Assembly: GCA_963969365.1 (NCBI GenBank)
Contig: OZ017755.1
Span: 868,001-932,000, forward strand
Length of the DNA stretch: 64,000 nt
DNA from: Asterochloris sp. CNOR1
Lineage: Eukaryota; Chlorophyta; Trebouxiophyceae; Trebouxiales; Trebouxiaceae
Direction of reading: 5' to 3'
Shown here: piece by piece, positions 2,196 through 59,021 of the stretch
How the letters are laid out: each line of letters starts with the position of its first letter
How positions within the stretch are numbered: position 1 is the first letter of the stretch
Position numbers and translations under genes: made by a program
Notes under the pieces: model-generated
Seen by the model: only the letters and a program-made list of their open reading frames with translations
Told to the model about the DNA's origin: nothing
The model's database searches: none

Positions 2196-5100
2196 ATGGA
2201 GAACATCAGCGTGCACGTGCGTGTGCGGCCTCTGAATGCTCAGGAGCGAGAGAAGGGCAACTGCTGGCACAATGCAGACAACCGCATTTTTCAGATCCGG
2301 CGTGACACGGGGGAGCCTGTTAACGCTGATGGTTATGCGCTGGACAACATTTTTGGCAATGACTGGAGCACTGCACAGGTCAGTAGCTGGAGCCTGGCAG
2401 CGCTGATCAAGGTGCTGTAAAACTGGGGCGGCTTCCTCGCAGCCTGAAAGTAGGCCTGGCCTCATATTCCTGCCTGCTGCAAGAAGAGCTGGCTGCACTG
2501 ACAGAGCATCTCTGGAGGTAGCACTTCAGGGGGGCAAGCAGAGGCCACACAGCGCTTAGACACCTGCTCAACCCAGCATAGCCAATGTGCATACTTTGCT
2601 CCCAGCTCTACACAGCGTTACCTCAATGTTAGCCTCAGGTCCTGAGGTCGGCTGCACGAAGGCCCCACAGCTGCCAGGTCTTTCTAGCTAGGTCCACCGC
2701 AGCACCCAAGATCAGCAGGCTTGGCATCAACAACTTCCTGGTGCCTCTTCATATATGCCTGTGCAGGTGTGCAGTGCCACCTGACGGCTTGCAGCCCTCT
2801 GGGGAGTCCTAACAGCTGGCACTCTGCCTGCCTGCGGCCCAGCCTCTCTCCAGCTCAGTCTGGCAGCGTCCTGCACTGCTCCACGCATCTCTTGAGCGGC
2901 ACCTGCTGCAGGCCTGCCTGATCTGGCTGAAGTGCGGCTCCCTGAATCAGCCCACCTGCCTTGATCAACTTCCACATCCTGCCTGCTACAGGTTCACAGC
3001 GCCACCACACATGCCTGGCTCGGGTCTGGTGCACCTCCCCCTGCTCAGCCTGCTTGCCTCTGCCCACTGTCCCATGTTGTATGCTGCAGGTCTACAGCGC
3101 CACCACCCAGCCTCTGATCCAGAAGGTGGTGGGTGGGTTCAACAGCACGGTCTTCGCTTATGGGCAGACCAGCAGTGGGAAGACGCACACCATGCGAGGC
3201 ACAGAGCAGGAGCCCGGTATCATCCCCCTGGCTGTTCGGGAGATCTTTGACCACATCGGCAGCATGCAGGACCGAGAGTTCCTGCTGCGGGTGTCCTACA
3301 TGGAGGTATGCAACCCATCTGCCTCCAGTTCAAGCTGTGCATGCCATGAGGCTGGGCTGAAGTCCCAGTCACTTGCAGAGGTGCAGAACAGGCCCTGTGC
3401 AGCACAGAGCATGCAGCCACCAAGTTTGAGGGGCTGTGTTCACAGGAGAGTTGGCATCAGGCCTGCTGCATGTGCTGCTATGGGGCCAGGCTGTGCGACA
3501 AGAGATAGGCATATCTGGCCTATGGTACATGCAAGGGGCTGCTTTGTGAGTTTCCCCAGTGCTGTCTGTACTTCTGACATTAGCCATACCCTGCCACCTG
3601 CACCATGCCGACCTGCACTTCAACCATCTACACTGCTGCCAGCAGGTCCATCACAAGAAGCTGCATCATCTAATGTCAAGGTAGCCACGCAGACTGCTGC
3701 CCGCTTGCATCGTACCTATTGCCAGACCTGGTCTTCTGCCTGCCTGCAGATCTACAATGAGGAGGTGCACGACCTCTTGTCCAGCGAGCAGACCAAGCTG
3801 CAGATTCATGAGAACAAGGACAGCGGCATCTATGTGGCCGGCCTGCGGGAGGACATAGTGACCAGCGCAGAGCACGTGCTGCAGCTCCTGGGGGAGGGCG
3901 AGAAGATGCGCCACTTTGGGGAGACCAAGATGAACAAAACGTCTAGCAGGAGCCACACCATTTTCCGCATGGTGAGGCAGGCAGACTTGGCCGCAATCAT
4001 GGCACCGTTGTGTGAATGAAGCTGAAAGGTCCAGCTGCAGCTCTACAGGCCAAAAGATGAGCTGAGCCAGGAGGCGCTTGGATACGGCGAGACTTGGGAC
4101 TCCTGCACATCTATGGGAGGCTGCATCCACGACTTGCCCGGGCCAGCAAGTGGACATGCAGTTTTGTGGTCCAGTAGACTGGATGAGCTGCCACGAGCAG
4201 CTGTCTTTGCAATCCAGCCTGGGCGGCTGTCAGCCTGTGTTTGCTGGCCAACGCCGCACCCCTGAGCTGCCTGTGGAGGAATTGTCAGCAGGAGTTTGGT
4301 GGCTCAATGTCAACTTGGCAGCTGCATGCATCAGGGTCTGCTCCTCACCTGCAGCCCTGTTGCCGCATGCAGGTGGTGGAGAGTCGCAGCCGTGACCAGA
4401 CAGCTGAGTCGGATGACGGCGGCGCAGTCTGGGTGTCCACGCTGACTTTGGTGGACTTGGCGGGGTCTGAGCGCATCAGCAAGACGGGGGCCGAGGGCCT
4501 GCGCATGAAGGAGGGGGCCTCCATCAACAAGAGCCTGCTCACGCTGGGCACTGTCATCAACAAGCTGAGTGAGGGGACCCAGGCCACAGGTGAGACATGG
4601 GTGGCATGGTGGAAGAAGGCCAGGTCGGTAGATGTGCCCTGTGTAGATCTGGAAATTTCCAGATACGGACCCGAGCAAGGCCCCTAGGTGAACAGCCACA
4701 GCGCCGGGAGTTGCCCTGGGTCAGACAGGGGCACTGAATGACACCCATGCCACAGGTCACAGCAGGTTGGACATGCAATGGATGACAGATGGGCTGGACA
4801 GCGACCCACCTGCCCGGGTGCAAGGGCCAGCTCTTGGACCGCTCTCAGGCTCATGGCAACCTCAGTTCAGTGGCCAATTCCTCTGCCTGGGTGGCTCTGG
4901 GTAGGATGCAGGAGCAGGTTATCTGGCGGCTGCCCTGCGCCACTAGCGATCAGCTTCCTTTGCACTGCGCAATGCACTGCATCTCAGGATGATGCTGCCT
5001 TCTGCCTCGATCAGCACAGAGCGTCGTCCCTGAACGCCTCACACCCAGCATGGCGTGGCAGGGCACGCCACAGCTCCTGTTGTGCCTGCAGCTAGCCAGC

Positions 5101-8100
5101 ACTCCGCAGCCCTTGCTGTGTGCTTGGCCCCTGGCAGTTTGCAGCGGAGTGACGCCTCCTAATGGTCTGTACTGCAGGTGGCCACATCCCCTACCGCGAC
5201 AGCAAGCTGACTCGCATCCTGCAGCCGTCCCTGGGTGGCAATGCCAAAACAGCAATCATCTGCAACATCACTCCCGCCGCCGTGCACGTGGACGAGAGCC
5301 ACAGCACGCTGCGCTTTGCTTGCAGAGCCAAGCGCGTGGTCAACAATGCGGTGCGTGTGCTCGCTGCCTTGTCTGCTGCGCATCTGGTCCATTGCTGCAA
5401 TGCACTGCGCTTCAATTCTGTGGAGCACCTTGCTGCCATGCTGCAGGCGTCCACATCTGTTGCAAATACGCTGCAGCCAGATGCAGTACAGCATGCCGTG
5501 TGGCCGTTGAATGCACAAGCACACATCAGCATTTGGGTTTCACATGAGCAAATGCGCACACACTATCCTGCGTGTGCTCACCAAAACACATGCTGCAGGT
5601 GGTGAATGAGGTGCTGTCAGACGCTGCTGTTCTCAAGCGCCAGGCACACGAGATTGAGGAGCTGCGCAAGATGCTGGCAGGCAGCGGGTGCGCCTGGACT
5701 CCTCCCATACACTGTCTTCTATTGCTGGCTGACAAAGTAGTGGCCTCAGCAAGAAAGCCGCAGGGCACCTGCTGGTGGCCCTGCTGCAAGGCTAGACCAT
5801 CAGGCGACACTCTGCTGATGCTGCACAACATGCTGATGGGCACCGCAAAGGCATTGCTGAACGGCTGTGCTGCATGGTCGGCCTGTGCACAGTAGACTCC
5901 CTCTCTGCATGTACATCTTGCCAGATTGCGCACCATGCCAGGCTGTTCAAGACTCACATGTCACACTGCTGTCCTGGACTGCTGCTGCACACCCACCATT
6001 GCTACTCACAGATGATTATCTTCTGAGAGCTGCACAGGGCCTGTAGGGCTGCCAATGACACTTGGAGCTGCTAGCGGCTGGTAGCTGGTAGCTGGCACCA
6101 GAGAGACCGAAGCTACATTGCGGGCTGTACTCACCGCCAGAGAGTGTACGTCAGCTGAGGGCCTGGGTGCACTGCAGGAATGCTGAGATCGAAGCCCAGA
6201 TTGCGCAGTTGCGTGCTGCCCTGTTGCACAAGGAGCAGGAGCATGACCGCATGCAGCTGCAGCTGGCCCAGGAGAAGGAGGAGCGTGAGAAAGTGCAGCG
6301 CAAGGTGAGAGATGCAGTCTGCAGCGCGTATCCCAAATTCAGGAGAGAGGAGGAGTTTTGGTCTCAGAATCTCGTGGTCATGATGAGTGGGGCTGCACAG
6401 CACAAGAGAATGCAGGGCACCGTCACTGGGTCTGCTGACACATCCAAGCTGTTCAAAAGCTCCGGCTGGTGGTGAAAAGGATCAGCGCAAGGAAGTGCAG
6501 CTCAGGGTGAGAAGGCGCATTGACCAGGAGTCTGTGCGTACCAGAAATGCAAACTGCCTGCTGTGTGGGTTTGATGCAATCACTGGCACACAACATAGAA
6601 CCTGGGCTGTTTGCGGTGCATCTCATAGCGCTTGCCCCACAAGGCTGTTGGCAGTGTAACTACCGGCTGCTATCCATTGCAGTCTCCTTTGCCAGGCTTT
6701 GGAACATGCGGGAGTGGAGCACAACGTGGAAGCCCTGCATATGAGTATCAGCCTCCTGCAGGTGGAGCACATGACTGAGCTCATGCTGAAGGGAAGACGC
6801 GATGACACAGATCAGGAGGTGCCCAGCAGCAAGGGCAACAGGCGCGAGACTTGGGCGCCAGGCCTGGCTGGTGAGGCTCCAATTACCACTGCAGATAACA
6901 GTGCTTCGCCAGCTGAACGAGGATTGCTACGCTGCCTCAGAGCAGATTGCCATGTACAACAATAGGCCTTAACCTGATGGCTGCTGGCTCCGGTGTTGGT
7001 AGGCAGCTCAATGCCAAATGCCACAGAACAAAATGCCACGCTGACCAGCTTGCCTTTGAACATGTTGCTCTGTGCAGGCTACGTCATCCCCCTCAAAAGC
7101 TGTCAACCCAGCAGCCTGCTGCTGTGAGTGGCAACAGCCCCTGACACACAGCCACAGACACGCAGCAATGCCAAAGCTGTCTGCCTGCAGGTCAACGAGG
7201 CAGGAAGAGGCCTCTGCCGCCACGTGACAAGCCATCGCCAGCACAGGACACCAGACTTCCGTCACACGCAGGAGGACGCAAGTCTGAGCCAGAGGCTCTG
7301 GGTGCTTTTGGGGGCGAGGCCATGACGCCCCCGCCGCTGCGGCGCAAGAGCATGGCAGGTATGACCTGCAGTGAGTGCTGGTTCTGTGCTCACACCGCAT
7401 GGCTGCGGTTTGCACATGACATGCAGCGTCTGGCGTCGCCTGTCCCACTGGGAGGCTAGCCCTCCTCAGACATGACCCTGCACCCCCATCAGCGAGCTAG
7501 GCTGCCAGGCCAGACCTCCCAGCAGCTGGCAGCTCGTTACTTTACAGCCCTGAAGCCTGCAGATTGCTTTGTGCACAGGCAGCAACATTGCAGATGCCAG
7601 GTGTGGAGCATGAGCTCTGGCTGCGGCTGCCCATGCATTGCTGCATCAAAGCCCTTGCTCAGATGGCCAGCCTGCTGCTTGCAGATGCTGGGGACGAGGC
7701 AACAGGGTTGGCTGCCGCTGTTGCCGCCTCACACGGTGCTGATGAGAAGGTCAGAGCCTTGGAGGCTCGTGTGAAGGAGCTCGAGATGGAGCAGACCCTT
7801 ATGCAGCGAGAGCTGGATAACATGAGCGATGTAGCCCAGCGCAGCGATGCTCAGTTGCGGTGAGTGCCTTGCACAAGGGCTGCTGGGGTAGCTGCAGGGT
7901 TAGGTGGCTATATCTGCTGCAGCTCACTGCTGAGTCAGCTGCAGGGTCCTCCTGTACACAGCTGAGCTGAATGACAGCTTGCATGCGCCGGGCACACTGC
8001 AACATGCGAGGCCAGCTCTGGGAAGCATTTTAGTGCAGGCTCACCTATGATGCACTGCCTGGGAGAAGCCATTGACACGTGTTTGAGATTGGACGCCAAA

Positions 8101-11100
8101 GGGAATTTCAGGAAAGTTCAGACAGGCAGCTCGCCGCTGCTGCCGAGCGGCAGAAAGTGAGTGGGTGGGGGTGTCTCAGCGCTTGAGGCAGGATGGCAGG
8201 GCGTCTTGCTGCTGCATGCAGTGCTGCAGGGGTTGAGCTGGTAGGTGTGTTGGTCTGAGCGGATAAGGCAGCTCCTCTTTGCACGATGGCAGAGTATGAG
8301 CTAGTGAAATGATCATCATTCGTGATGCGGGGTGACCCAACACGCCCAGTGCACACTGTTGCCTGCAGCGCTGCAGAGGATGAGCTGATGGAGCTAATGT
8401 GATGGTTGATGAGAGGCACAAGCTGGTTTCCAATGTTGCGGCAACTGAGCTGATAGGGGTAGACTGGCATGAGGCGCAGCTCAAGTAGCCTCAAGGCCTT
8501 CTGCAGGGCTGCAAAGGGTGAGCTGCCTGGGGTCACTGAGTAGGGTGCATGATGCAGGCAGCAAGGTCAGACTGACCTAACATGCCAGGACTCCTCGCTG
8601 CTTCCAAGAAAGCTGCAGAGGCCAACCTGGTGGAGGTGGCTCGTGAGGTGCCAGCATTTCAGGAGGCTGCCCAACATGCGATGGTGTCTGCAGGGCTGCC
8701 GAGGATGAGCTGGTTGGGGTGGCTGATGAGAAGGACAAGCTGGTGCCCCAGCTGGAGGAGGCCAAGTGGCGAGCGCGCCAAGCTGAGAAGGAGCTGGAGG
8801 CTGCCACAGAAGCTTCCGCAGCCACAGAGCAGGTGTGGGGCCAGCAACAGATGCATAACGGGCAGCAAAGCGCCATCAAGTTCCATGGATACTGCTGCGT
8901 GGACTTGCACGAGCAGCATGTAGCTGACAAGCATCAGAAATACTGCGGGCTCATCCAATTGCTTGCAGGGCTGCACCGAGCTGAACAACATAGAGCTCAA
9001 GGTCGCTTCAACTCATGCACTGTGACCACCAGCGCTGACTGGAGTAGGAGTGTCAAGCCTGCACGTGACCTTGCTTCTGAACACACCTGCCTTTCCCTGT
9101 GCAGCTGAAAGGGGAGCTGCAGGGGCAGGTGACCAGCCTGCAGCAGCAGCTCGCCGACCAGGCTGCCGCCGCCACCCAGCAGGAGAGGGAGGCCAGCATG
9201 GGGAGGGCAGCCCTGGAGCAGCAGCTTGCGCAGCTCAAGGCCGACCTCTCAGGCCAGCAGGACCAGTCTGTTGAGCTGGCGGACAGGGCTGCTAAGCTTG
9301 AGAGCAAGCTTGCCAGGCAGCAGGAGGTGAGTCAGGTGCTCTTGCAGCTTGATTTGCCGAGGGAGTGGCACTGCATTTGGGGGGCCCTGCTATGTGATGG
9401 CAATGAGCTCAGCTAGGATTGAGACTATCTGCTGTTGAGGTAGCTCAACAAAATTCCACTCCTTGCTGACCTGCTACATCATCACTGCCGCCTTGCTACA
9501 GCCTGGGCGGCTGCACAAACATCCTCGCCCTTTTTCTGCAGGAGGGCCAGCAGGGGGCCGCCAAGCTGCAGACTGCATATGTAGACCTGGCAGAAGCCCG
9601 CAGAGCCAGAGAGGCAGCGGATGAGAAGGCAGCGGTTGCTGAGGCCAGGTCACGCGACCTGTACGACTCCAACACCCGCTTGGAGGCTCACATTGCTGGT
9701 GAGGCGCCCTGGTGCAACCAAGCCTGCATCTGAAAATGGGTGCAGCGCCTCAAGATTCCACAAGGGCAGCATGTGTAAAGTCACCTGACCACGAATCCTG
9801 CCCAGCATTGCTTTCTGGATGTGTGCGACAAGGTTGAGCTATGAGTTGGAATCTTGGGAGCCGGGTTATGAACTTGTATGCAGATCTGGAGAGGAGCAAG
9901 AGGGCCCCCCTGTGTAAGGACCTCAAGCTCAGCTGTTCACTGGCTGCATGCTGCAGGGACTTGTGAGTCTTGGTCTGTGTAGACCTGTCCATAGGGCTGC
10001 TTTCATTCTGAATCCGGCACCCACCTGGCTGCACAGATTACATGGTGGCATGATTGAGTGCAGACCTGGAGAGCCGTAAGAGGGCCCCTCTGTACCAGAA
10101 GAAGCAGGAGGAGGAGCTCAGAGCCGCAATAGAGAAGGCGCAGGAGTGCGAAATCAGGGCGCAGGAGGCGGAGCTGCGCTGCAAGGAGGCAAAGGCGGGT
10201 TCTGCTCCAGGCTTTGGGGGATGAGCGCTGCCCATGCTTGGGGACGACAGCAGTCAGGGCACAGGATGCAAAGCTGCGCAGCAAGGGGGCCAGAGTGGGG
10301 TGCACGCCTTGACTCTCTTCGAATGCTGCAAACCAGCTTGGCTTGCACAGAGTTGGGTCTGAGTCTGGCATCAGCACTGGGCCGGCCTCCCAGCAGGGGC
10401 CAGAGGCAAGGTTGAGCAGGTGCAGCCTCTCCTGGTGGGATCATATTTGGCCGAAAAGATAGTGTGCAGCATTGCCTCTGGTGGAAGGCCGAGGCCATGC
10501 CTGCCTGTTGGCATCAGCACTGGCCATGCTCTGAGGGCAAAGACAGAGGCCTCCCAGCATCTTGGACACTCAACATGTCTGGCAGCTTTTGACCTTTCAG
10601 GTGCGCTTTTCTTTAGGGACACATTCTTGAGTGGTGTGGCACTGAGGAGCCCCTGACACCTCTTCTCGGCTGACACCCCAGTGGGCTGCTTCTGGCCTGC
10701 AGGCTGAGCGGGAGACAGCACAGCAGCAGGCTGAGAATCTGGCATCACAGCTGGAGGCTTTGACTCAGCAGGCTGCAGAGGCTGCTGCTGAAGCTGCAGC
10801 TAGCCTGGAGGCTGCAGAGGCGCGGGGTGCGCAGGCGCTGGAGAAGATGCAGGCAAGTCAACCCTTAGGTGCTCCACATGTGAGCATGTGACCAGCATGG
10901 CTGAGGTCTACAATCACACCTGCAGGAGTGGTTTTGACGGCCTTCCGTGGGCCTCAATCCCGCACTAGAGGCTGATTGCGTCTGTGGTGCTGGTGCCTTG
11001 AGGGCATAGCTGTCTCTCTCAGTGCGCACAATGACCTGCAGGCGTCTCACGAGGCCAGGGCAGCAGAGATGCAGGCTCAGCTGGAAGCAGCGCAGGCAGC

Positions 11101-14100
11101 CACTGAGGCCAAGGATGCCCAAGTGGCGGAGGCCTCAGCCGTCTTGGAGCAGCTCAAGCAGCAGCTGCAGGATGCGGAGACCTGCGCTACCGGACTGGAG
11201 GCCACAATGGGTATGTGTGCCCCCTGCCCTGCCTTACGCGCATGCTTGTGAACTGCAGCCAGGCGATGCGGATCATCCCAGACGAGCAGGTACTGCCATG
11301 CAGAGCTGTGTAGGGCAGCAGAGCATCACTTTGAAGATCAGGGCCTGCCGTCACTCTCACATGCCAAATGTTCACACGCTGCGCCCAACAAGGCCTGAGC
11401 TGTGCCCCTGGTGGGCCGCCACTGACCCTGTCCCCTGGGCAGTGGTGTCTGCCAACATGCAGGCCAGTCCATGCAGAGGAGACAATGCCTGCCTGTGGAC
11501 ATGCAGTAAGATGGACTGAAGTTTGCTGCATTGTCTATGAGAAGTAGGTGTCCACGAGCTGTGCAGCTGCCATTTCCTGGGTGCTCTGGGCCGTGTTGCT
11601 TGCCTGCATGCTGGCTGATGATACACACGCAGACTGCTGCCGTGCAGGGGAGACGCAGGCCTGTGCAGATGCGGCAGCTGAGCGCATTCAGACCCTGGAG
11701 ACGACCCTGGAGGAGCAGGCCGCTGCAGCTGAGGCTGCTGCTGCTGAGGCCCGGAAAGCTCTGGCCAGTTTGCAGGAGCAGGCTGCAGCAGGCCTCCAGA
11801 AGGCTGAGGCTGACATGGCGACAGCTCTGGAGGCGGCCGCTGCGGACAAAAAAACAGCAGTGGGAGCACTGCAGGCACAGCTGCAGCAGGTGCAGGTGGG
11901 GAAGCGCCTGATGCACCTGCCCGCCTGGCTCCCAGCGCATGTCTTTGCATGCCAGACAGGCCGCAGACGCTTCCTTAAGCTGCTCAGCAGAACCCAGCAC
12001 CCCATGGTGCCTGCATTCCTGTTGTTTTCCTTACAGCTTCCTCAACACAGCAGCTCCGCTGCAATGCAGGAGTCCTCTGAGTCAGCGGCCACCCAGGCCG
12101 AGGCCACACTGAAGGAGACCAGGGAGTCTGCAGAGGCTGCTGCCGCCAGGGCGACAGCAGACTATGACTCCCTGCGGCGGGTGCTGGATGCTGTCAACGC
12201 CCAGAAGGCAGAACTGGACAGCAGGCTGGCCAAGGCTGGTGGAGCATTGAATGCTGCAGAGGAGCTGAGGGAGGCCAAGTGAGTGCCACACCTGCTGGGA
12301 TTGCAGATCCTTCATCCCCCTCTAGGCAGGAGGTCCAGGAGGAGGTGGAGAGCACTATGTCTATAAGGCCTGCAGAGCCTGCTTCAGGCAGCAGGATCTT
12401 TGTGTGCAGTTCCTGAAGCTGCAGTCCAGACCAGCTGCATGCTGCCGGCCTTGTGCATACCACACAGCATTGCACCGCCAGCTTCAGAGATGCTTATCAC
12501 CTTGATCTCGAGATGCTTGGCGGCCTGTGACTCAGTCACACAAACCTGCAACACACATGCGCATGCTCACTGCCTGCAGACGGCAGCACAAGCAGGAGCT
12601 GATGAAGCTGACCCAGCAGCTCAAGTCTGCCAGCGTCAGCAGCAAGGGCGGGGAGAAGGAGTCTGAGCGCCTCAAAAAGGACCTTGACAAGAGCAGGCAA
12701 GTCAATGTGCCTGGCTGCAGTCCAGACAGTGTCCCTCCTGCTGCCACTTCAGCAAACCCAAGCTGAATGTACTTCATGCAGCCTGTGCTGACAATGTTGC
12801 CGGGCCTCCACCTGTCAGCATGTTGTGTCTCAGGAAGCGCAGGTCTGACATCCCCAGTCAAGTGCGCAGCCAATCTCTGCCTCACTGCTTGCGTTTAATG
12901 GACTCCTGTCTGGGTTGGCTTCCCCCAGAGTGGCAAGCTGCCACTCGTCAGTGCCTTGTAGGATTCCATGCGTGCGGACATGCCCCTCAGCAACCCCGCC
13001 CCCATGCTGTGCAGGCGCTGGAGGCCAAGCTTGCCTGCCACTCGTCAGTGCCTTGTAGATCCCATGTGTGCAGGCATGCCTCTCATGAAGTCCGCGCTCA
13101 TGCTGTGCAGGGAGAAGGTGCAGGCACTTGAGGCCAAGCTGCGGGGCGCCATGCAGGACAAGGCCAACACCCAGATGGAGAAGGCTGCCCTGGAGCGCGA
13201 GCTCAAGGGACTCAGGAACCAGGCTGGGAAGCTGACCAAGGTGGGGTAAGGTAGCAAGCACTCGTTGCGGATAATCTGTTATGTAGAGCCAGCTCCAGGC
13301 GCTCGCAACATGCTGACCAAGGTGAGAGCCACCTACTGTGGCAGCTCCAGGCACTTGACTATGGGGCTCCAGACGCTCAAACAAGAAGCTGGCCAATGTG
13401 TGGGCCTGAACTTACAGTCTGTCGAGGTCTAAATGCAGGCGGCAAAGGGCTAGCTGTGACTGCCAGAATGCAAGCCGCAGGTCTATCATATGCTGCGTAT
13501 TGGCATGTGAGCAAGGAGTGCAGGCTGCCAGGCAAGCCCTGAAGGGCACAGTGGCCGACACAGTGTTGATGCATCAGACAGCTTCATCTGAATGCATGAC
13601 CTTCCTCTGCCCATCATGTCACAGCGCTGAAAGCTATGGCCACAGGGCCTAAGGGTCTTTGCATTACACCCTTTTGACAGATCTGCAGGATGTAGGCTGG
13701 CCCCTGTATGCCAGTATCATTGCCAGCTTGCATATGGACACAGCTGCAGTTGTTTGACGAGTTCCTTTGACAGGAGCAGCTGCAGGCATCAGGCTGTCTC
13801 TGAGCATTTCTGTTGTCTGACATGCTGTATGGCAGCAGAACCGCTATACAATTGCATGCCTGTCATGCAACAGGGAATGATCTGCAGGACTTGGACAAGA
13901 AGGACGCCCTCGCTGAGAAGAAGCGCGAAACCATCATGACCGACTTCAACAAGACGCTGTCGGAGCTGGGCGGCCTGCAGGATGCACTGGCCAAGAGCCA
14001 GCTGGAACTGGAGAGGATGCACTTTGAGCTGCAGGCCAAGCAGGGTGCGTGCTGGCAGGGAGGGGCTCAAAATGGGCAGCCCATGATCATGCTGGCACAA

Positions 14101-17100
14101 GCAATGCATGGGCTTTCAGCAGTGAGCAGCACACATGGCTGTGTCCTACTGCAGAACAGTGGAGATACAGCGCTCTCAGCCGCAAGCCAAGCGAGGTAAG
14201 TGCTGGCAGTATGGACGTACCTTATTCTGCAGGCCAACAAGGTAGCTAATGGCTGCCAATCAGCATCCTGCACTGCACAATGAGGAGAAAGGGGTGCCAC
14301 TCATGAGCATCTTGTGCTGCAGGCCAACAAACAAGGGTGGGTGCTGGCAGCCACGATCAGGGACTTTGTGGTCGGACACATGGCCCGCACTGCATGTTGA
14401 ACAGCTGCCGGCGAGGGTGCATGCATCAGGAACCTTGTGTATGCAGTTTTTGCTGCAGGCAGCCCTGCAGCCCGGATCTGAGGCCTGTGACTGACCACGC
14501 ATGTCCGCTGACACATCTGGTCCAGTGTCAGACAGCCAACGCCGTGCAAGACATGGCACAGCTTGCCAGCCTGTCCCCTTCCTGCTGACTGAGAGCGCTT
14601 GGGATGCAGGGGAGTGCGAGAGGGTCAGTGCGGAGCTGGCGGAGTCGGAGAAGGCTGGGGCAGAGCTCATGCAGGAGCGCGATGAGTTGAGCAGCAGAGG
14701 CAGCGCCCTCGAGGCTGAGCTGGAGGGGGCCAGGCAAGCTTTACTCTGTGTATCGTGTCCTGCGGCAGCCCATAGCGGCTGGGTTTTGCAGGAGCGGGCT
14801 GAGCCTGCACTGATGTACCCCAAAGAGGCGTCCATTGCAAGAGGGGCTGGACATGTCAAGCCCACACAGCGAGTGCGCTGAACTGTTGCTGACAGATCTT
14901 GTGCCCACCACTGGCACCTGCAATGCACTGTTGGCGCCTACTTTGGCACTGCTCCCTATACTACTTCAACACAAGCAAGCCATGTGACCAACTCAAGGCA
15001 GAACGGCACAGCACACATGTCAGACCCTGCTGCCTGCAGGGCTGAATTGGAGGCCAAGGAGCAAGACGTGACTGCCACGGCTGAGGGGCGCGCCGAGATT
15101 GAGGCGAAACTGTTCGACCTGAGGACCGCGCATGACAGCCTGCAGCAGGCCAAGGTGCAGGTGGACAGAGACCTGGCAGGCCTGAGGCAACAGCTGCAGG
15201 GCATGCAAGAGGCGCTGGCAGCGGCTGAGGTGTGCACGCATGGGAGCCATCCTGTGCCTCGAGGGCGCCAGCTTACCTGTGGATGCTCATGGAATGGGCT
15301 GCATGGCTGTGTCTGGGTCGCGGCATGGCTCATGGAGATGCTGCCGGGGCATGCAGAATGAGCACGGAGCCAACATGTGTGATCTCACACACAGGTTGTC
15401 CTGTAATGCCCGGCAGGGGTCAGGGAGCAGCTGCAGGGCGTGTAGGAGGCAGGGGGGCAGCTGAGGGGGGCCGCTGAGGTGTGCACTTGCCAGCACCAGC
15501 TTGCCTCGACGCCTCTGGAGAACCCGTGCACTCTGGGTCTGGTTGGCAGGTGGAGAAGGACCTGGCAGGCCACGGAGCAGCTGCAGCTGTGCAGAAGGGT
15601 TGAGTGGTGGCTGAGGCTTGTGCCAAGCCAAAGCCTGACTAGCTTTATCTGAGAGCTCATGGGCTCCAGAAAATAGCTGCAAAGCATGCAAGGGTGCACT
15701 GAGGCGTCGCACTGGCTGACCTGTGCGTGTAAAGAGCCACAAGCAGGGTTGGCGTACCTGTGCTGTGCGTTTGCATTTATGCTGTGCATGCTTTGAGCTG
15801 CCCAATCTGGCTGCAGGCCTTCATTCGAACCTGCAGCGTGCATGACAAACAATATTTACTGCAATGTCCAGGCAAGCCTGCCAAAGACCTGCCATTCGCC
15901 GCCACAGCTGCATGCTACAAGACTCAGGAGGTGTTGACTTCGGATGGGAGGAAACTGCGGTCATGTGTGAGTGTTGCAGGCATGCAAACCTACAGCAGCA
16001 GCTGGATGCAGAGCGACGAGCAACCTCAGGCTGCTCTGCAAGCAGTCAAGCAAATGTGTGCGTGTGCAGGCACGCCTGCCAGAGATCGCCCAGTTGCAGC
16101 AGCAGCTGGACGTCGAGCGTGCGCGGGCCGCCGAGCTGGATGCCAAGGGCCAGCAGGATGCAGAGAATGCAGCCTTTGCCCAGGCTGAGTTGGAGGCTGC
16201 CAAACAGGAGCTGCAGCAGCAGGCAGCAGCTCTGGAGGCAGACCTGGCAGCGACAAACTCGAAGCTGGCTGAGGTTGAGGCTGTCAAGGCTGCAGTGCAG
16301 AAGGAGCTGGCAGAGCAGAGCGAGTATGTGCAGCAGATCGAGAGTGAGTCCCCTATCGTGGCTTTCTGCTGCTGTGCACTGTGGCAGTGTGGATGCATCT
16401 TTCTGAGAGCAGGTTCTGCTGCCCAGTTTTGCATAGCAGTGTGCTGCTATGCATCAATATGTCTCATGCTGCAGCATGCGTGACAGGCCTACTCAGCATT
16501 GGTGCCCAGTGATCACATCAAGTTCACCTAGCATACAAGTACATCATCAGCTGGCTCGGCGCTGCAGCTGCAGTCACAGCAGCAGCAGGCAGTCGTGCAC
16601 ACTCCATTGACCTTCCAGCTGCAGTCAACAGTGCTGCTGGTGCCCCTGCAGCGCAAATCAATGACCTCGAGCTGCAGAGTGAGACTGTGAAGGCCAGCAT
16701 GGCACAGATGGAGCAGGGCGCCAGAGAGGTGGCTGAGCAGCTCAAGAAGACCCAGGGGCAGTGCCAGGAGCAGGTAGCACAGCTACAAGAGAGCGCTGCG
16801 CAGCAGGAGCAACTTAGGTGGGCCAGCATGACCACCTTGTGGTACAGGACGCAAAGGCCAGCTGGACCATCGTGGTCCCCCGTCTCAAGCCTTGACTTGA
16901 CGTTGTAAGGGATGCTGGAGGCAGTCTGACATGAGCCTGCTCGAAAGAACGCGAGCAACATGCGTGCATGCGCTGCTGACATGAGGTGACGGCTGTCTGC
17001 AGAAGGCAGCTTCAGGAGGCCCAGACCGCCAGTGAAGCTGCATGCAGATCTTGGCCAGAAGCAACTAGCTGCTGAGAAGGGAGCGTGCCGCCCAGCTTGA

Positions 17101-21714: not shown

Positions 21715-22074
21715 GTGTGTCGACGTCATCACCTCAGCAGGCTGCATTTGGGGGTGCACCTGCAGGCAGCACATCCAGGACAGGGCAACAGATTACCCCA
21801 CAACTTGTTTGGCGTGGTGGACAGCCTGGCGGCGCTCAAGGCAGCTTTGTTGCGTTGCAGAAGTCCTGCAGCACATGGGGCCAGCGCTGCAGCCGCCCTT
21901 GGGAGATCTCCACATGCTTTGGCTGCTGCCCAGCACCAGGTCCCGAAGCAATACGGAGGGAGTAGGCAACTAATGCTGTCGTGCAATCGGCCAGATGGTA
22001 GGAGTCCTGAGTACAGAAGGCAGCAGGGAACATCCCAAAGCCTGGTCTCACAGGCGGCGACAGAACAGTACCTC

Positions 22075-42537: not shown

Positions 42538-45500
42538 ATGGAGGCGCAGAAGGCCACTTTGAAAAAGAGCGCGCGCAGGGCACAGTATCCTCCTGTGGCC
42601 ATCAACCTCACCAACTGCAAATACGATTTACGTGAGTGGGGCAACACACTCAGGGCTCAGCTTTGGCAACCTGCCATCTTGCTCCGAGTTAGGGCCTCAG
42701 CAAGGGCACCTTGATGCAAGATGTCAGGCAGTACGGCTGTGGTGGCTTTGCAACCTCAGAGGTGCAGGTTAACTCTGTTCTGAGCCCTTGCAGTGCGTAG
42801 CGTGCACCAGCAGCATGGTGAGCAATAGGTATGGCTGCAGCTGTTTTGTCTTTGTGCAGTGCGAAGTATACAGAAGCAGCTGGGGTGGACGACAGCCACC
42901 GATCGCGATGACTGGGACCTTTATTGGACAGACACCTCTGTCAGCCAGGAGCGGGTCATTCGCCTGAACAGCACGCAGGTGGGCTGCCCAAGCAGCAGAA
43001 AGCCCCACAGTTGTGACAACAGAGCAGCAGCCTGCACCACACCAACAACACACCCTCACACCTGACAGCAACGCTCCCTGGGGAGCCTCCTTCAGCAAGG
43101 AGCTAGATGTGCTGCATCAAGCAGACAGACCCCACACCTGCAACTCAGCCTGAGCCTGCTGCCAGGCGGCTGCCGTAGCAATGTGATTTTCTGCAGTGGC
43201 AGCTCCCACAGTTGCACGCTCAGCGTCTGCCAGGCTTGCAAACCTCTGCCAGGCCTCCTGCAGCAGCCATTTGTCCTTCATGTAGTGGCAGCTCCCACAA
43301 CTGTACCCTCAGCTGTCTGCAGGGCTCTAGCAGATGTAGCTGAGCAGCACTGGCTGTCAAGTGCTGGCCCATGTGTGCTTCCTTTGGCAGCACCAACCAT
43401 GACATTTGGGTGTTGCCTGCTTTGCAAGTAGGCTGGACTGAGTTTGCTGCTGCACAGCACCCTGCTGCCATGTCTTTGGGTCCTCCTTGTCGCCAAGTGT
43501 AGCCGCCTGCTGCAGAAGCTCAACCACTTTACAGGCATGCTGGACCTGTGCCGCAAGCGGTCTCTGGCCCGCAGTATTGCCATCATGGCCCAGCACATGC
43601 CCCAGCACTACGCCTTCTGCCCCCGCACCTTTGTGCTTCCCGAGCAGGCAGGAGAGCTGGGAGCTGAGCTGAAGGCACAGCGTGGGCACAAGCGCCAGCG
43701 GCGGACCTACATTGTGAAGCCGGACAGTGGCTGTCAGGTTTGAAGCTTGCATGTTGGGCTGTGACCAGCAGAGTGATGCTTGCCACTCAGATGTGCTTCT
43801 CTGTGGAGGCACCAGCCAGCTGCTGGCGCTCTGCTGAGAAGATCACCGCAGGAGCGTGCCCTCAGGCAGCACAGGATCAATGTCCATGACACGTGACTTT
43901 TCCATACTGCAAAAAGTTAGCAACTGGGGCTGACCAGTGCAGTGAGAGCCAGACATGACTCTGGTGCAGGGCATGGCATCCTGGGGACAGCATGCGATGC
44001 GACTGCAGGGCAGGAAGGTCTCTCCTTCTTGATGAGATGAGCGTGCTACTTGCGCAGGGCAAGGCATCTGCCTGATACAGACAGTGGCTCCGCTGCAGCG
44101 TGCTACCCCGGCACTCATACTCAGCATTTGTTGTTGGTCTATCCCCCCCCTTCCCCATGGTTGCTGGTGAAGGGCCCCCGAAGGGCCCCTGCCAGGGTGA
44201 GTACTTTGCATGACGGCAGGCGCCAGGCTGAATCAAGCATGTGCTAGTGCAGGGCAAGGGTATCCGCCTGGTGCAGACTGTGGCCCAGCTGCAGAGGGCT
44301 ATGGCAGAAATGGGCAGCGCGGAGGCCGTGGTGTCCCGCTACCGCCACAAGCCCCTGCTCGTGCGAGGGCTGAAGTTTGACCTGCGCGTCTATGTGCTGC
44401 TGCTGTCCTGCGATCCTCTGCGTGTCTTCATCTACAAGGAGGGGCTTGCCAGGTTCTGCACAGAGAAGTATGAATTTCCAGAGGTGGGGCTTGCATGGCT
44501 TTGATCAATCTTTGCATGATATTGAGTCTAGCACTGAGAAGCGTGAGTTTTGTGGTGGGTCCTGCAGGCCACAAAGGTGTGCTCCTGAAAGTGTCCAGAG
44601 GTGCCCTTGCAGCCCATGCCAGGAAGTGCAACATGAGCATGCCACTTTCAGGAACACTCTGGTGCTTCACACTTGCCTTGCTCGGATATGACCTGCACGG
44701 CATAGGCACACGGTTTAGATGCAAGGGATTGGAGCCTGCAGCTGTGGGGGAGGGTATGCAGCATGCATGGTGCCTCCCCAACAGCTTGACACAGTGTCAG
44801 TGAGCTTTGCTGCCACATCAAGAGCCATGCCAGCAGCAGCTGTGTTGGCACGGGCACTGCCTGGAGTGTGCCCAGAAGCGTTGGCACAGACAGGTCACAA
44901 TATGCTCAGCCCTGCCTCTTGGCTGGGCAGTTGCAGTCGTTGAACACACGCGCCGCTCAAGCCCACTCCTGCCGCCCCTGGTGTCCTGCAGGCCGGCAAC
45001 ATTGACAAGGCCTGCATGCACCTGACCAACTACTCGATGAACAGGTTCAGCGAGGGGTATGTGCAGGCAGACGGCAGCGTGGAAGGCGCCGACAGCGGCA
45101 GCAAGTGGACTTTTGCCACTCTCAGGTGGATGGAGGCCTGTGCCTTGCTGCCTGTGGAGCCTGGCAGCCACAGTCAGGCTGAGGCTCCTCACTCCGCCAT
45201 CTGCACTGCCCTGCAGCATTGTCTGTCAATGGCCACAGCTATCTGCAGCAACAATGCATGCACCTGGACATGGCTGCTCAGCAAGCATGCACATGGCTGC
45301 ATCTCATGTTATACAGATGGGCTGCTGCACTGCAGGACATGGATGGAGCAGCACAAGCTAAACTTTGATGCTGTCTGGCAGAGGATTGAGCAGCTTGTGG
45401 TGCTGTCGCTGATCTCTGTGCAGCCTCTGCTGCAGCAGAACTACAGGTGAGGTCCCGTGCCATGCGGTCCTGACAGCCCAGCGTGCCGCTGCCCACGGCA

Positions 45501-48500
45501 GGACAGCAGGCGCCGCTTGTCACAAGTGACCAGCATGATGCATCTGAGGCTGGACAGCTTGTTGGCAGGCCTGCATTGCATGCTGTGAGTGGGCTGGCCA
45601 CAAAAGTTCATGACTATCAGGTGCAGCTGTCCCCGCCCTTGAGTGAAGTTTCTGGCTAGGATGACGGGTGTGATGTCCGTGTCCAGGGTACCACTGCAAC
45701 TGGGCTGTCCAGGCTGCCTCTGGTGCAGTGCTGCGCGGGCTGCCTTCTGGAGGGTGCCATGTGCCGCCAGCATACCCCTGCATACTGTTGGCCCAGCAGG
45801 CATGTCATGCGCACGGTGACCGGCTGTCCAGCCGTGCCATGTGGGGTGCCTGCTGGACAGCGTGGCTCTCAGACGATCATGGCTCTGCCTTAGATGGGTG
45901 CACTTGCTCTGATAGCGCCTGGGTCTATCTCTAGCACGCGCCCTGCAGCAGCAGTGTGCAGCGAGGCTGGCAAGGCGGCTCAGACAGCGCTGCAGACCTT
46001 GCTGCTGCCAGGCCAGCACGCTGCGTCCAGCACAGCAGTTGCCACCTTGTACCTGCAGGACCAAGCAACTGCCAGATGACAAATGCTTGCCCTGCCGTGA
46101 TGGCAGCTGCCTGACAGGCGTGTGAGACATGCTGTGCGTGGGCTGTCTGCAGGACACTGCAGCACCTTAGTGACATTGCTCATGGCAGCTGCCGGACAAG
46201 CGCGCGTGACGTACAGTGTGGGGGCTGACTACAGGACACCTTGGGTCCTTGCCTGCTCTGAGCCGCCCTGCCTGCCAGCCATCCCTGCCAACCTGTGGGG
46301 GGTACCTGCAGGACCGTGCGGCCGCCAGATGACGACGGCTTTGCCTGCTTTGAGCTGCTGGGGTACGACATCCTGCTGGACCACAAGTGCCGCCCCTGGC
46401 TGCTGGAAGTGAACCACTCCCCCAGCTTCTGCACAGACAGTGTGCTGGACCTCCAGGTCAAGCAGCACCTCATTTTGGACACCCTTGCCCTGGTGAGAGG
46501 AAGTGCTGGCTTTCACTCTTTCGTGTCCCATAGCAGCAGTATGTTGTGTGCAGGGTGGTTCAGTACTGGTCACCCTGGCTCAGCTGGTGACTCGGTCTGG
46601 GATGGCATCTTGGCGGGGAGCAGCCTGGCTGGGGCACGTGCATGCGGTGTGACCAGCGACAGTCGCACCTCAGACAGGTGTTGCACTGAACAGTGTCTGC
46701 GTGCCCAGCAGCCAGCTGTTGCTTCGCATGCAAGCCAGGAGAGTCTACCTGCTGACAGGCCTGACAGGCCTGACTCTGAAGGCTCTTGGCTGGCACACAC
46801 ATGCAGGTGAACATGGACCCCAAGCAGCTCAAGAAGCAAAAGGCTGCCGCCCGGCAGGTAGCTGCAGAGCGCCTGGTTGCCCAGCGCACCCGTAGCACTG
46901 CTGCCGCCCCCAGCTCTGCCTGGGGAGGGGCCACCTGTTCAGATGGCCGCGGTGCAGGAGAGGGGGCCAGTGCAGGGGCCCTGGATGGTGAAGCTGGTGC
47001 CAGGGCACCCCTCTCCCGGAAGGCGGCCGCTGATGCAGAGCTGCTTCAGTTCAGGTGTGCAACGCCTGCCCAAGGCCTGTCAGTGCACTTGTGCTGCAAC
47101 ATACAGCAAATGCAGGGCTGCTTTAGTATTGATCTGCACTTGCCGCACATGTTCTGCCACAGTGCTGCTTCAGGCCGCAGCTCCAGAGCTGCAAGTGTGC
47201 ATAGGGTGCCCACTTGCAGCTCATGTTCTGCTGCTGCCCATCTGCTGCACCAGGTAGCAGGTGCATCGTTGCTTCAGGTGTGTAGGGGCTGCTCTTGCCC
47301 TGCCTCCCGCCACTCCTGGCCACTCATGCAATGCTGCAGCACTCAGGTGTGCATGGACTGCCTCTTGCTGTATCAGGGCAAAGCTTACAGGCCGCTGTGG
47401 GCTCTGAAAATGGCTTGAGGAGGGCACAGGGTGATGGTAGCTTTGCTCATTTGTGACATTGTCCAGGCATGATCTGCAGAAGCACTGGAGCATGGCTTGC
47501 CTCAAGACATTGCAAGCCAGGCAGAACATTCGCCCCTTGTGTCGGCCAGTTGCTGGGCTACAACATCAAGATGCCAGGGTGCTGTGCCACGTGTCCCCCA
47601 TGAGGGAGTGGCGAAGCAGCCAGCACCTGCAACATGCTGTGCATGCCTGAGAGATGCAATGTCTGGACCAGGACATGGCACCATTGTGCAGGACGGAGGC
47701 AGCTGCCAGTCGCCAGCGGCATGAGGACAGGCACATGGGCGCCTTCAGCAGGATCTACCCACCCCAGGACCCTGTGCGCCAGGCCCTGTATGCACAGGCC
47801 CTGCAGGTGGCTGCAGCTGCTTTTGCAGGCTCCATGAAGGCCAAGGCCCACTCCACCATTGAGAGGCTTCAGGTGGGCGTGAGCAACTGTGGGGCCTGCA
47901 GGTTGCAGAGGCGGCTGGTAGACAGGCTGTACTGCAGGAGGTCAAGCCAGCTCTGCTGGCTGCACCCGCTGTCAGCCAGCTGGCATTGGCCTGCACACGC
48001 CTTCCGTACGCTGGCTGCACTCATCTCGTGCTGCCAAGGACCCCCGCGACTTCACCGAAAGCAGCATGCCCAATCTCAGCATCTGCGCTGTCACCCAGAT
48101 CACCCATGTGCATCCCCTGCAGAAGCAGACTTGCCAGCAGCAGGCTTCGACTTGGTGCCAACGTGCTGGTGCTTCATCGCTACTCCTGAACGCTCAAGCG
48201 TCAGGAGCAGGGCATCTTGACTACCCTGCCAAGCAAACAGCATGAATGCATTGGGTCCGTTGCTGTGTGGCTGCAGTGAGCAGAAGGGCCAGCAGCAAAA
48301 CGCCCAGGAGGCCAATGTAAAGCAAAGATGGGGCACACTCTAATTTCTGCTTTGGTGCTGAGGTGCCCCCCACCTCGGCCCCACTCACCATCTACCTCCA
48401 CACAGCAAGTATCCAACATGCAGGAGCAGAAGCGCCAGCAGCAAGATGCCCAGGAGGCCAAGATGATGGCTGAGAGGCAGCGGGCAGTGGCGCTGCGCCA

Positions 48501-55400: not shown

Positions 55401-58400
55401 CACATACATGAAAATCATGCTGGTGGGTGACCCCACAAGCAAAGCCGAGCTCTTGGCAAACACACCAAAGCATGCATCAGCTCCCAGGCAAAACCAACTG
55501 TAGACCTCGCTTTTGTGCGCCAGTGGCAGTTTGGCCCTTGACCTGTACGTGCCTCCAGCCAGGCTCATTGGTGGATGCCTTTGCTGGAAGCGCTTTCATG
55601 TGTCCATTTGCCGTGTTCTAGGTGATGGCCTTGCTTGAGGCCCTTGTTTATGATTCATGGAGCTTGCGCATCCTGTGCATAACCTGCCTGCAGCCATGTG
55701 TTGCAGTGGCTTCTGTCTCCCGCCTTTCAATTTTCTGAGTACCTAACTGTGACCATCCAGTGGGGCGAGCTTGGCCTAGGCAAGGCCATCTTGTCTAAAA
55801 GCTGTCATAGCTGGTGTTGTACTTGGAAGCTTTGTTACACCAGAACCGCTTTCGTTCAACTCATCCTGACCAAGAGTCTTCTTCTTTCCCTACAGGTGGG
55901 GGGGCCTGGCCTTGGCAAGACCACCTTCATGAAGATGCTGCAGCAGCAGGTGTCCTCTGTGAGCAAGCCCTATGAGGAGGACGAGCAGGCCTGCCTGCTG
56001 AAGCAGAGGGCTGAGGCCGCACCTGGAGAGTACTTTGACATCCAGGCCAAGCTTGAGGAGCACTTTGTTGCCAACCATACGGCCTTCAGCTGTGTCCTGG
56101 AGCACGTGGATGGGCCCTTCAGCTACACCTACACGCTGCAGGTGAGGCATAGGCGTGGCTGCAGACAGAAGCAGATAGACCCCACAAGCTGCACCTGCAT
56201 CTGCAGGGGAGGCCAGCGGGACTGTGAGCTATAATTTGTTTCAGGGTGCGGCTCTGCTTCAACAGCGGTGCATGGGCCATTGTCACCTCTCCCATCATCT
56301 GTGCTTGGTGGAAAGTGGCGCTGCACGCTGCAGGGCAGCCAGTGCGCCAGCTGTGCTTCTAAGCTCCACAGACAGCCCTGACTGTATGCCCAGTCTGCAA
56401 TCCATTTGGTGTGCTGAGGCAGCTGTGAATGCCTTGCTCCTTGGCCCAGCGAGACTGCCAAACATGCTTTTAACCTCCGCTTGCTGGGCTGATGACCTCC
56501 ACAGACGGCCCTGTGACCCAAGTGCTGGACCTGCTGGCAGCCTGGCGCGCGGGAAAAAGGGCTCTGTGATACTGTTCTTGAACCCTCCTCCTGCCTGTTA
56601 CAGGACGTGCCTCGCCTGCTGGCCTCCACAGACTGCCCTGTGGCCCGCGTGCAAGACCAGATGGCCGCCTGATGCGCTAACGGTTCACAACTATGGACAC
56701 TCTGTGTGTTTATCTGCCATGCTGCAGGACATGCCTGGCCTGCTGGCCTTCACCGACTGCCCCGTGGCCCACGTGAGGGACCAGCTGGCAGCCTGGCGCG
56801 CTGTGAAGATGGCTGACGAGGAGGGCCCAGACCCCCGAGTGGATGTGTGCCTGTACTTCATGTCGCCTGAGGGGCTGCGGGCGCAAGACGTGGAGATGAT
56901 GGCACAGCTGAGCAGATGGACATCGGTGGTGCCAATCATCGCCAGGGTGAGTGGGTGTGCTTAAGGGGTTGCAGGCTCAGATGGCTTTGCTGTGTAGACA
57001 GCGCATGCTTTTGGGGGGCTTTATGCTGCGCCTCTTGACAGCACCTTGGGGGGCCATGTGACCAGGCTGCACAGACATGTGAACCCCTTAAGTTCCCTGT
57101 GTGCTGCAGGCTGACAGCCTGGCCCCGGAGGGTCTGACTGCCTACCGCAAGCAGGTGGTGGCCTGTCTGGAGGAGGCCAGCACTGAGGCTGGCAGGAAGA
57201 TCACCTGGACGTTGCCGGAGGCGCTGAGGGCAACTGTGAAGGCCACTGCGGGTCACATCATGCCTCCCTTTGCCATTATCAGCAGCACAACCTTCGATGA
57301 GGAGTTTGGGAGGTGAGGCCTGGTCTTGGGGATTGAGACTGTGTCATTTGTAGGACAAGCCCTTTGCCATACCAGCAGCACTGCCCTTTCACACAAGCTT
57401 TGAAAGGTGCCGCCTGGGTCTGGTGACTATTCATGTGACCTTTTGTGTTGTGCCTGCTGACAAGGAGCTGCAGAGGCACAGACTGAGCAAGCCATAACCA
57501 TCTGGCTTTTGTGTACGTGGTCTGCAAGGGTTGGGGCTTGACCCAACCTGCTACTTGCAGAAGCTGCAGGAGGCAGGTATCTTTCCTCACTTAGCAACAA
57601 CAAGTAATGGGCCTTGAAGGTCCCAGGCCCAATTGACAGGCCTTCCACTTCTCTGCCCCTGATGCCGTGTAACTGCTGTGGCCTGCTGCCTGCAGCTTTT
57701 GGCCGGTGCGTCACTTTGCCTGGGGCACTGCCGCGGCCATGAACACAGAGTACTCGGACTTGCCCATGCTGCGCGATCTTCTCTTCAATGTGGGCCTGGA
57801 TCACGTCAAGCGCGAGACGAACACCTATTACTCCATGTTCTGCAATTGCCAGCCAGGTGTGTCCTGCAGTGTGCCAAGGCCATGGACATACAAGTTGCTC
57901 TGCGGTGGGCTCTTCAGGGAAGGTTGATGCTGCATATGCAGCAGCCTTTGTGCTGAGAGCAGTCTTTTGCCTTCCGTCAGATAGCTGTCTCTGCTGATGT
58001 GGTGATTGTCAGCGCTTCACCCCAGTCCCGGTCTTCCAGCACTGCAGTGAGCACCCCTGGCCAGCCATCCTGTGCCTCAGCTAGCCTGGAAGACTTGGCA
58101 CGTTTTCAGCAAAATATGCTGTTTGGGCTGAGGATCCTTTACTTCTGTGTGCAGACGAGGCTGCACCCCCCACCACCAACCAGGTTGCTCGTGGCGCCAG
58201 GACATGCTCAGCAAGCAGGTGGGCTGCCTCTTCCTCTGACATGTTTGGCAATGTCTTGGTGCTGCACCTGCTGCAGTTTGCGGCTACAGGCCCCTCCTCA
58301 GCCCCAGTTCGCACCCCTTGCCTTTGGTGGCTATTGTCATGTCTCTGGCGGCTCACCCCACATGACTGCCGTGACTGCCTTGCCCCTTGTGTACCTGCAA

Positions 58401-59021
58401 CCGGCCTGGCATGCACCTGGCATGTAGCAATGTGGTTCATTGGCGCAGCAGCCACTTGCCTGGTGGCCCCGTCCCTAGCCTGCGTGCAGCATTGGCAACA
58501 ATGCACATGCTCCTGTCCACCTTGTAGACTGGCATGTGCACAGCCTGGCAGCACCTGGCCTTTGGTGACAACCCTTCATGCCCCCAGTCTGCCAAAAGAC
58601 ATGCCGCAGCCTGCGCCTGAAGGCAGCCCTCACCCCTGTGGCCTGTTACATGTGCATTACCCCATGCACCTGCCTGCATGTGCAAGGTCAGCGCAGCCCG
58701 GCCTGTGGTGATGCTGCTGATTCCCCACCCCGCAGGCCATCACAAGGGCGCAGGCCCACCTGGTGGCGCCGCCTGCGCCTGAAGGCCCGGCCTTTGCGGC
58801 GGTGGGCGACGGTGGTGGGCCTGGGCGTGCTGGGCTTCTGGGCCGCCAGCGCGACCGTGGCAGCCCTGCACAATGGGCGTGCTCTGGCGGCCTCACGCAT
58901 GGAGCTGGAGCGCCACCAGGCCGATACGACCCAGGTCATTGCCCACCTTGCCAACACCCTGCACAGAGTCAACCGGCGCGGGCGCCGCCACCGCACCTGG
59001 AGCTGCGAAGCCAGTGCCTAA
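52498..59021 (+). CDS. Septin GTPase with acidic N-terminal extension and C-terminal membrane anchor
   Basis: The core is secure: exons 55303-55422, 55896-56141, 56728-56946, 57110-57312, 57696-57856, 58155-58218, 58736-59021 chain in phase. They give KIMLVGGPGLGKTTFMKML (G1), DMPGLLAFTDCP (G3), VVPIIARADSLAP (G4, AKAD-like), FAIISSTTFDEEFG and the septin end SDLPMLRDLLFNVGLDHVK. Septins polymerise into GTP-binding filaments at membranes and division sites. After the G domain comes a single hydrophobic span (RWATVVGLGVLGFWAASATV) followed by a basic end, so the protein is likely membrane-anchored. Upstream exons (53093-53145, 53251-53300, from 53503, 54561-54710) encode an acidic, Ser/Pro-rich disordered region. 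Their joins and the true start, somewhere near 52500, are not settled. Confidence 0.85.
55755..55800 (+). repeat. Decayed copy of the septin P-loop exon start
   Basis: The real exon begins GTGGGGGGGCCTGGCCTTGG, then CAAGACCACCTTCATGAAG at 55896. About 135 bases upstream the intron reads GTGGGGCGAGCTTGGCCTAG, then GCAAGGCCATCTTGTCTAAAAG. The exon start, with the GTP-binding loop, is recognisably duplicated. Confidence 0.65.
56350..56675 (+). repeat. Three decayed tandem copies of septin exon 56728-56946
   Basis: The closest copy, 56604-56672, follows TTACAG and reads GACGTGCCTCGCCTGCTGGC, CTCCACAGACTGCCCTGTGG, CCCGCGTGCAAGACCAGATG, about 83 percent identical by eye to the real exon over 70 bases, with a stop where the frame would continue. 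A second at about 56495 keeps CTCCACAGACGGCCCTGTG and GCTGGCAGCCTGGCGCGC. A third near 56362 keeps CTCCACAGACAGCCCTGACTG. Spacing is 110-135 bases. Confidence 0.8.

Follow-up and report, generated by a model that had tools for sequence, protein, structure and literature searches.

We analyzed a stretch of 64,000 nucleotides from the green alga Asterochloris sp. CNOR1 (assembly GCA_963969365.1, contig OZ017755.1, positions 868,001 to 932,000), hereafter the window, in which many introns carry diverged copies of the edges of their neighboring exons. We refer to these copies as ghosts. The whole study covers this single 64-kb window, which is gene-rich nuclear DNA with 52-62% G+C, 200 unknown bases included, and TGCAG is the 3' end of most of its introns. 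Exon boundaries are predictions from our own small gene finder, edited by hand. Pfam searches covered 2.1-12.0, 24.0-33.9, 40.3-50.2, and 54.0-63.9 kb of the plus strand, with stops translated as X, and 0-2.4 and 22.4-27.3 kb of the minus strand; individual exons and a long interspersed nuclear element (LINE)-like element were queried separately. A previous sequence-only reading of this DNA had named five genes as carrying ghosts, and Pfam agrees with all five identities:

2.2-21.7 kb, plus strand: long kinesin gene (Pfam PF00225 and gene finder; 31 exons in the edited list)
plus strand: ADP-ribosylglycohydrolase gene (Pfam)
31169-33882, minus strand: PDZ/S41 protease gene (Pfam)
42.9-48.6 kb, plus strand: tubulin-tyrosine-ligase-like (TTLL) gene (Pfam, TTL)
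54.6-57.9 kb, plus strand: septin gene (Pfam PF00735)

The 200 unknown bases are located at about 22020-22260, just beyond the last modelled kinesin exon, and show up as consecutive X residues in the translated frames.

Short direct repeats in the window exceed chance by a wide margin. An ungapped scan, from which the region of the LINE-like element (35.3-40.3 kb) was left out, detected 49 direct pairs with a score of at least 18 and a spacing of 15-600 bp, and 0 inverted pairs were found under the same scan. Shuffled controls, in which dinucleotides were kept in 100-bp blocks, contained a mean of 0.55 and a maximum of 3 direct pairs (20 shuffles). This comparison answers the objection, raised in the sequence-only reading, that shared TGCAG/CAGCAG composition accounts for the matches. 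The repeats are also strictly local. When the window was compared with itself by gapped blastn, 18 same-strand matches reached a score of at least 44, all at most 500 bp apart; there was none between 500 bp and 32 kb, and one opposite-strand match reached the same score. In an ungapped scan at a score of at least 20, with the LINE included, 45 of 46 matches are at most 1 kb apart, and at the laxer score of 16 a weak excess of repeats extends to 2 kb (19 versus 6.5 expected). A mobile element was considered as the source of the copies and rejected, since no self-match within the window with a score of at least 44 lies beyond 500 bp.

The spacing of the 49 pairs ranges from 41 to 549 bp, which is wider than the 50-350 bases proposed earlier, but most pairs fall at 80-200 bp, with a peak at 80-170 bp. 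The spacing shows no frame preference, with 16, 20, and 13 pairs leaving remainders of 0, 1, and 2 after division by three. Spacings below 50 bp are nearly absent outside the LINE (1/49 pairs), so the duplication process seems to favor sizes of about 80-200 bp. A family of short direct repeats is also present at 30687-30986, outside the modelled genes, between the ADP-ribosylglycohydrolase and protease genes.

The copies are anchored at exon edges. In comparisons of introns with exons, 17 of 106 own flanking intron-exon pairs reached p<0.01 relative to 3074 non-adjacent control pairs, and 3 of 92 pairs with next-but-one exons did so. Of the 17 best pairs, 15 have their match no more than 9 bp away from the intron-facing edge of the exon. 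In a junction-centred test with 2090 control pairs per side, from which introns under 200 bp (6/53) were excluded, a match to the gene's own adjoining intron at p<0.01 was obtained for 12 of 47 acceptors and for 12 of 47 donors, where 0.5 would be expected per side. One acceptor match and one donor match among these fail to span the modelled junction. Introns positive on either side amount to 21 of 47, every one within four genes, and the positive genes include kinesin, septin, TTLL, and protease. The exon map gives a consistent picture for the 41 direct pairs that lie inside the four modelled genes (the 8 of 49 pairs outside these genes were left out). The intron copy is paired with exon sequence in 28 of the 41 pairs, compared with 16.9 expected when the exon map is rotated within genes (p<=0.0005), and the exon copy touches a predicted splice junction in 24 pairs, compared with 7.2 expected (p<=0.0005). 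Exon-exon pairs, by the same rotation, number 1 where 5.3 are expected. At an identity of at least 80%, local copies outside exons exist for 346 of the 9085 exon bases in the four genes (3.8%). These observations confirm the claim that adjoining introns hold diverged copies of exon edges, with chance excluded in three ways.

The ghosts and the real exons needed to read them are listed below, with identities over the aligned length. The junction called real in each case is presumably the one used in splicing.

2947..3011, plus strand: ghost in kinesin intron 1 of intron tail and exon head, with a CTACAG acceptor before 2992 (71% over 65 bp; p=0.0005); the real junction is before 3090, at a spacing of 98, and the intron part is also similar (z=3.3)
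3090..3305, plus strand: real kinesin motor exon 2 (VYSATTQPL...; Pfam PF00225 and gene finder)
6474..6512, plus strand: ghost of the tail of exon 6178-6304 with donor GTGAGA, 202 bp downstream (79% over 39 bp; donor p=0.0005)
8209..8647, plus strand: exon 8694-8832 has four head ghosts, near 8222, 8369, 8507, and 8611 (p=0.0005), with AG kept in the first three
9874..9913, plus strand: ghost acceptor and head of exon 10064-10198, spacing 180 (82% over 40 bp; p=0.0005)
10254..10299, plus strand: tail ghost from exon 10064-10198 at a spacing of about 100 (78% over 46 bp; donor p=0.0005)
12938..13034, plus strand: complete 97-bp tandem unit in which the intron tail is followed by the ghost acceptor GTGCAG and the exon head; a second copy starts immediately after it, at 13035 (24 bp at 100% and 54 bp at 80%; gapped alignment; intron part z=11.0)
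14160..14209, plus strand: ghost of the tail of exon 13839-14044 with donor GTAAGT, spacing 151 (74% over 50 bp; donor p=0.0005)
15409..15571, plus strand: exon 15040-15229 has two ghosts of its tail part, at spacings of 237 and 389 (79% and 88%; donor p=0.0005)
17778..17814, plus strand: donor-junction ghost from exon 17458-17662 at a spacing of 132 (78% over 37 bp; p=0.0005; intron part p=0.010)
19498..19541, plus strand: ghost acceptor and head of exon 19609-19746, spacing 91 (77% over 44 bp; p=0.0005)
20135..20206, plus strand: donor-side pair with 20257-20328, spacing 122 (76% over 72 bp), reading CTCAGG/GTACGCC versus CTCAAG/GTAAGAC at the junction; either copy may be the real exon
21229..21425, plus strand: exon 21571-21714 has two acceptor-and-head ghosts, at spacings of 335 and 161 (both 84% over 38 bp; first ghost p=0.0005, second ghost intron part z=2.8)
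29818..29844, plus strand: weak ghost of an ADP-ribosylglycohydrolase exon end (IVCGVMGAL, by reading frame), 54 bp downstream (85% over 27 bp; pair 29764/29818 with score 19)
32376..32422, minus strand: tail ghost from S41 protease exon 32488-32643, ghost donor included (72% over 47 bp; p=0.0005)
33330..33368, minus strand: ghost of the tail of PDZ exon 33465-33652 (PDZ by Pfam), spacing 133 (90% over 39 bp; p=0.0005)
44063..44105, plus strand: ghost of a TTLL exon head (exon start about 44253), spacing about 195 (79% over 43 bp; p=0.0005)
46049..46239, plus strand: three TTLL ghost acceptors before 46059, 46153, and 46235, with the real one before 46312 (77%, 79%)
48278..48315, plus strand: ghost of a TTLL exon head (exon start 48424), spacing 146 (92% over 38 bp)
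55753..55792, plus strand: ghost of a septin-gene exon head (VGGPGLGKTT, start 55896), spacing 135 (75% over 40 bp; p=0.0010)
56345..56678, plus strand: three ghosts of the head of septin exon 56728-56946 (78-82% over up to 83 bp; p=0.0005)
56728..56946, plus strand: real septin exon (Pfam PF00735)

Ghosts are clear in four of the five genes named earlier (kinesin, TTLL, septin, and protease), and those of the ADP-ribosylglycohydrolase gene, the pair 29764/29818 and an acceptor match with p=0.026, are weaker. Both PDZ/S41 protease ghosts that reach p<0.01 are on the donor side. Two of the multiple ghosts form near-regular arrays. The TTLL array at 46049-46312 contains four acceptor-like sites at spacings of 94, 82, and 77 bp, and its intron parts give z=-1.2 for the first step and 4.9 and 1.6 for the last two. 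The array before septin exon 56728-56946 has spacings of about 133, 127, and 124 bp.

The best matches are exon edges, mostly of 25-85 bp, rather than whole exons with both splice sites and an open frame, although the pair 20135/20257 may be an exception. We examined the codon pattern in 23 ghosts with a predicted frame, out of 26 regions, after dropping 3 with weak alignments. Mismatch rates at codon positions 1, 2, and 3 are 0.193, 0.170, and 0.241, and pN/pS is 0.65. A ghost free to change, compared with a constrained exon, is expected to give a pN/pS close to (1+w)/2, so the value of 0.65 is what decay predicts. Frameshifting gaps occur in 12 of the 23 ghosts, and 4 in-frame stops are present. 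The ghosts look unconstrained as code, and coding alternative exons were ruled out by the codon-position, frame, and stop counts. As for the splice sites that the copies were said to bring along, AG survives at the homologous position in 11 of the 15 acceptor ghosts that could be scored (4/19 unusable), and GT in 4 of 6 donor ghosts (5/11 unusable). The overall retention, 15 of 21, is near the 64% that neutral change would leave at 20% divergence, and it lends no support to the earlier suggestion of spare splice sites. Several ghost acceptors nevertheless have scores like those of real acceptors and may occasionally be used in splicing.

Recurrent local tandem duplication, with surplus junction-spanning copies eroding as intron sequence, is probably the best explanation for these features. 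Segments of about 50-400 bp, mostly 80-200 bp, would frequently be duplicated nearby in direct orientation. A duplication inside an exon would break the protein and be lost. A duplication straddling a splice site would be tolerated, as one copy of the junction would remain joined to the intact exon and could still be spliced. The surplus copy would then sit wholly in the intron and decay like ordinary intron sequence, and the intron would lengthen. We infer that the events were strictly tandem duplications and that they took place in this order. Tandem duplication of short segments is suggested by the direct orientation, the anchoring at junctions, the abutting 97-bp unit, and the near-regular arrays. 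A contiguous duplicated unit must reach the exon edge, which copying from random places in exons would not do, and the edge matches in 15 of 17 pairs thus favor the duplication of a unit. The deficit of exon-exon pairs fits the expected loss of exonic duplications. Furthermore, the intron parts of 18 presumed units are jointly more alike than controls (Stouffer z of 5.3, and 2.8 without the best pair), and an earlier, looser test of 19 pairs gave a Fisher p of 0.0003, with 4 of 19 below 0.05. The sequence-only reading had suggested that short stretches spanning splice sites were repeatedly duplicated and that the surplus copy then decayed, and the direct orientation, the abutment at junctions, the arrays, and the absence of visible coding constraint bear this out.

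Several results weigh against this explanation, or at least against its simplest form. The gene models are our own predictions, and 26 of 47 introns lack a ghost at p<0.01. Only 5 of 18 pairs still show a recognizable intron part of the presumed unit (z>1.64), whereas simulation at the age derived from the ghosts expects 17-18 of 18, which makes plain tandem duplication incomplete as an account. A greater true age with more insertions and deletions lowers this expectation to 14, 8, or 3 of 18. The ghost at 48278 is 92% identical over 38 bp, and yet the rest of its unit is unrelated (z=-1.4). The fraction of exon-intron pairs, 28/40 (0.70), is also higher than the 0.28-0.46 (standard deviation 0.11-0.15) obtained in four simulated settings of random duplication with decay. 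This excess may mean that junctions are preferred, that ghosts are kept or renewed, or that the copies are often shorter than their spacing. It is conceivable, though we think it unlikely, that splice junctions are preferred sites of duplication or that copies are renewed or kept there, for example by exon-to-ghost conversion. Such a preference, renewal, or retention would fit the fact that ghosts outlast the intron part of their own unit and outnumber what random duplication plus visibility gives.

The lack of recognizable homology in the remainder of the unit in 13 of 18 pairs, and the abrupt borders of the 92% pair 48278/48424, would also be expected if repair or replication placed nearby pieces of 25-80 bp into introns with unrelated filler, and full units were never formed. 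We regard such patch copying as rather improbable. End joining with templated inserts gives both orientations, whereas the copies here are 49 direct and 0 inverted; they adjoin splice junctions and not random places in exons, and at least one complete abutting unit is present together with near-regular arrays. The persistence of the exon-like part beyond the adjoining intron part, and an excess of exon-intron pairs that exceeds visibility effects, could instead point to ghosts retained as regulated alternative or decoy splice sites, which would agree with the ghost acceptors that score in the range of real ones. However, visible coding constraint is absent (pN/pS, frameshifts, and stops as above), the splice dinucleotides are kept about as often as neutral divergence of 20% gives, and the spacing is without frame preference, which makes this reading quite improbable.

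The occurrence of exon-derived sequence inside introns recalls the Rogers model, in which introns themselves are tandemly duplicated exonic AGGT segments. This model needs the start of the downstream exon right after the donor and the end of the upstream exon right before the acceptor. Most acceptor-type ghosts are instead preceded by an AG of their own and sit toward the 3' end of the intron, whereas donor-type ghosts follow the real donor and mostly carry a GT of their own. A Rogers-type geometry was rejected by these positions, and we give the model hardly any weight. Even less probable is an effect of composition, by which shared TGCAG and CAG-rich sequence would make exons and introns alike. 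The tail of kinesin is indeed CAG-rich and coiled-coil-like, but the effect is present also in septin, TTLL, and protease, and the local shuffles (0.55 pairs versus 49) and the non-adjacent exon controls refute a compositional origin.

Local tandem duplication with decay of the surplus copy has several known relatives. Short tandem duplications from staggered breaks occur in plant genomes, and the events proposed here resemble them in being direct and tens to hundreds of bases long. Most likely, a familiar type of event has taken place here at an unusual density.

The potato RdRp gene gained a new intron when a tandem duplication crossed one of its intron-exon boundaries, and its first intron has an 83-bp tandem duplication (PMC4974935). 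The duplicated segment there spans the boundary and carries acceptor, tract, and exon head with it, as in the window. The potato case is one event that yielded a new intron, whereas here the surplus remains within the existing intron, where it decays, and this applies to 21 of the 47 tested introns. Rogers-type intron gain (reviewed in PMC3443670) is similar in that tandem duplication of a gene segment supplies intron sequence; it differs from our case in starting from exonic AGGT segments, as existing introns lengthen here and the geometry of the ghosts is different. Tandem exon duplication also leaves exon-like, sometimes degenerate sequence in neighboring introns (PMC9013439, PMC12343006), but the focus there appears to be on whole exons and alternative splicing, while the copies here are exon edges spanning a splice site. 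The proportion of exonic bases with a local non-exonic copy is about 0.08% in fly, 0.06% in worm, and 2% in human (PMC9013439); the 3.8% found here can be compared with these values only roughly, as methods differ. Introners also supply intron sequence, and most reports of them concern lineages that evolve fast, green algae among them (PMC9860276). They place one sequence in many introns, whereas within the window each copy matches its own neighbor only. No report of widespread exon-edge ghosts at such density was found in the titles and abstract openings searched, a coverage that leaves out most subscription journals.

The window contains three further features outside the genes discussed above:

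minus strand: CKS gene (Pfam / gene finder)
minus strand: FAR-17a/AIG1 gene (Pfam / gene finder)
35444-40212: LINE-like element (reverse transcriptase match; endonuclease match below threshold)

The first open reading frame of the LINE-like element holds tandem units of 21, 33, and 42 bp, and the second, of 1148 amino acids, carries the reverse transcriptase match and the below-threshold endonuclease match. Relatives of a kinesin exon, the LINE, and a TTLL exon were absent from a viral contig collection, and relatives of the kinesin exon and the LINE were absent from a genome contig collection as well. Rfam at gathering thresholds gave 0 matches, and ARAGORN gave 0 genes.

The origin of intron sequence is usually hard to trace, as introns decay and few keep a recognizable source. 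In the window, nearly half of the tested introns show a visible local source that is anchored by a still-conserved exon. The earlier proposal that the duplications are a main source of intron growth in this genome is a hypothesis beyond the scale of one 64-kb window. The ghost-to-junction distances, summed over the 21 positive introns, account for roughly 4.5 of 24.5 kb of modelled intron in the window, a contribution that is substantial and below a majority. It is also worth noting for annotation that exon-like stretches in these introns may draw false exon calls. The ghosts would allow the growth of introns to be dated step by step and the tolerance of splicing for duplicated sites to be measured, and they would let one ask whether copies of exon edges seed alternative splicing. 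If splice junctions are indeed preferred sites of duplication or renewal, they would keep seeding the growth of introns.

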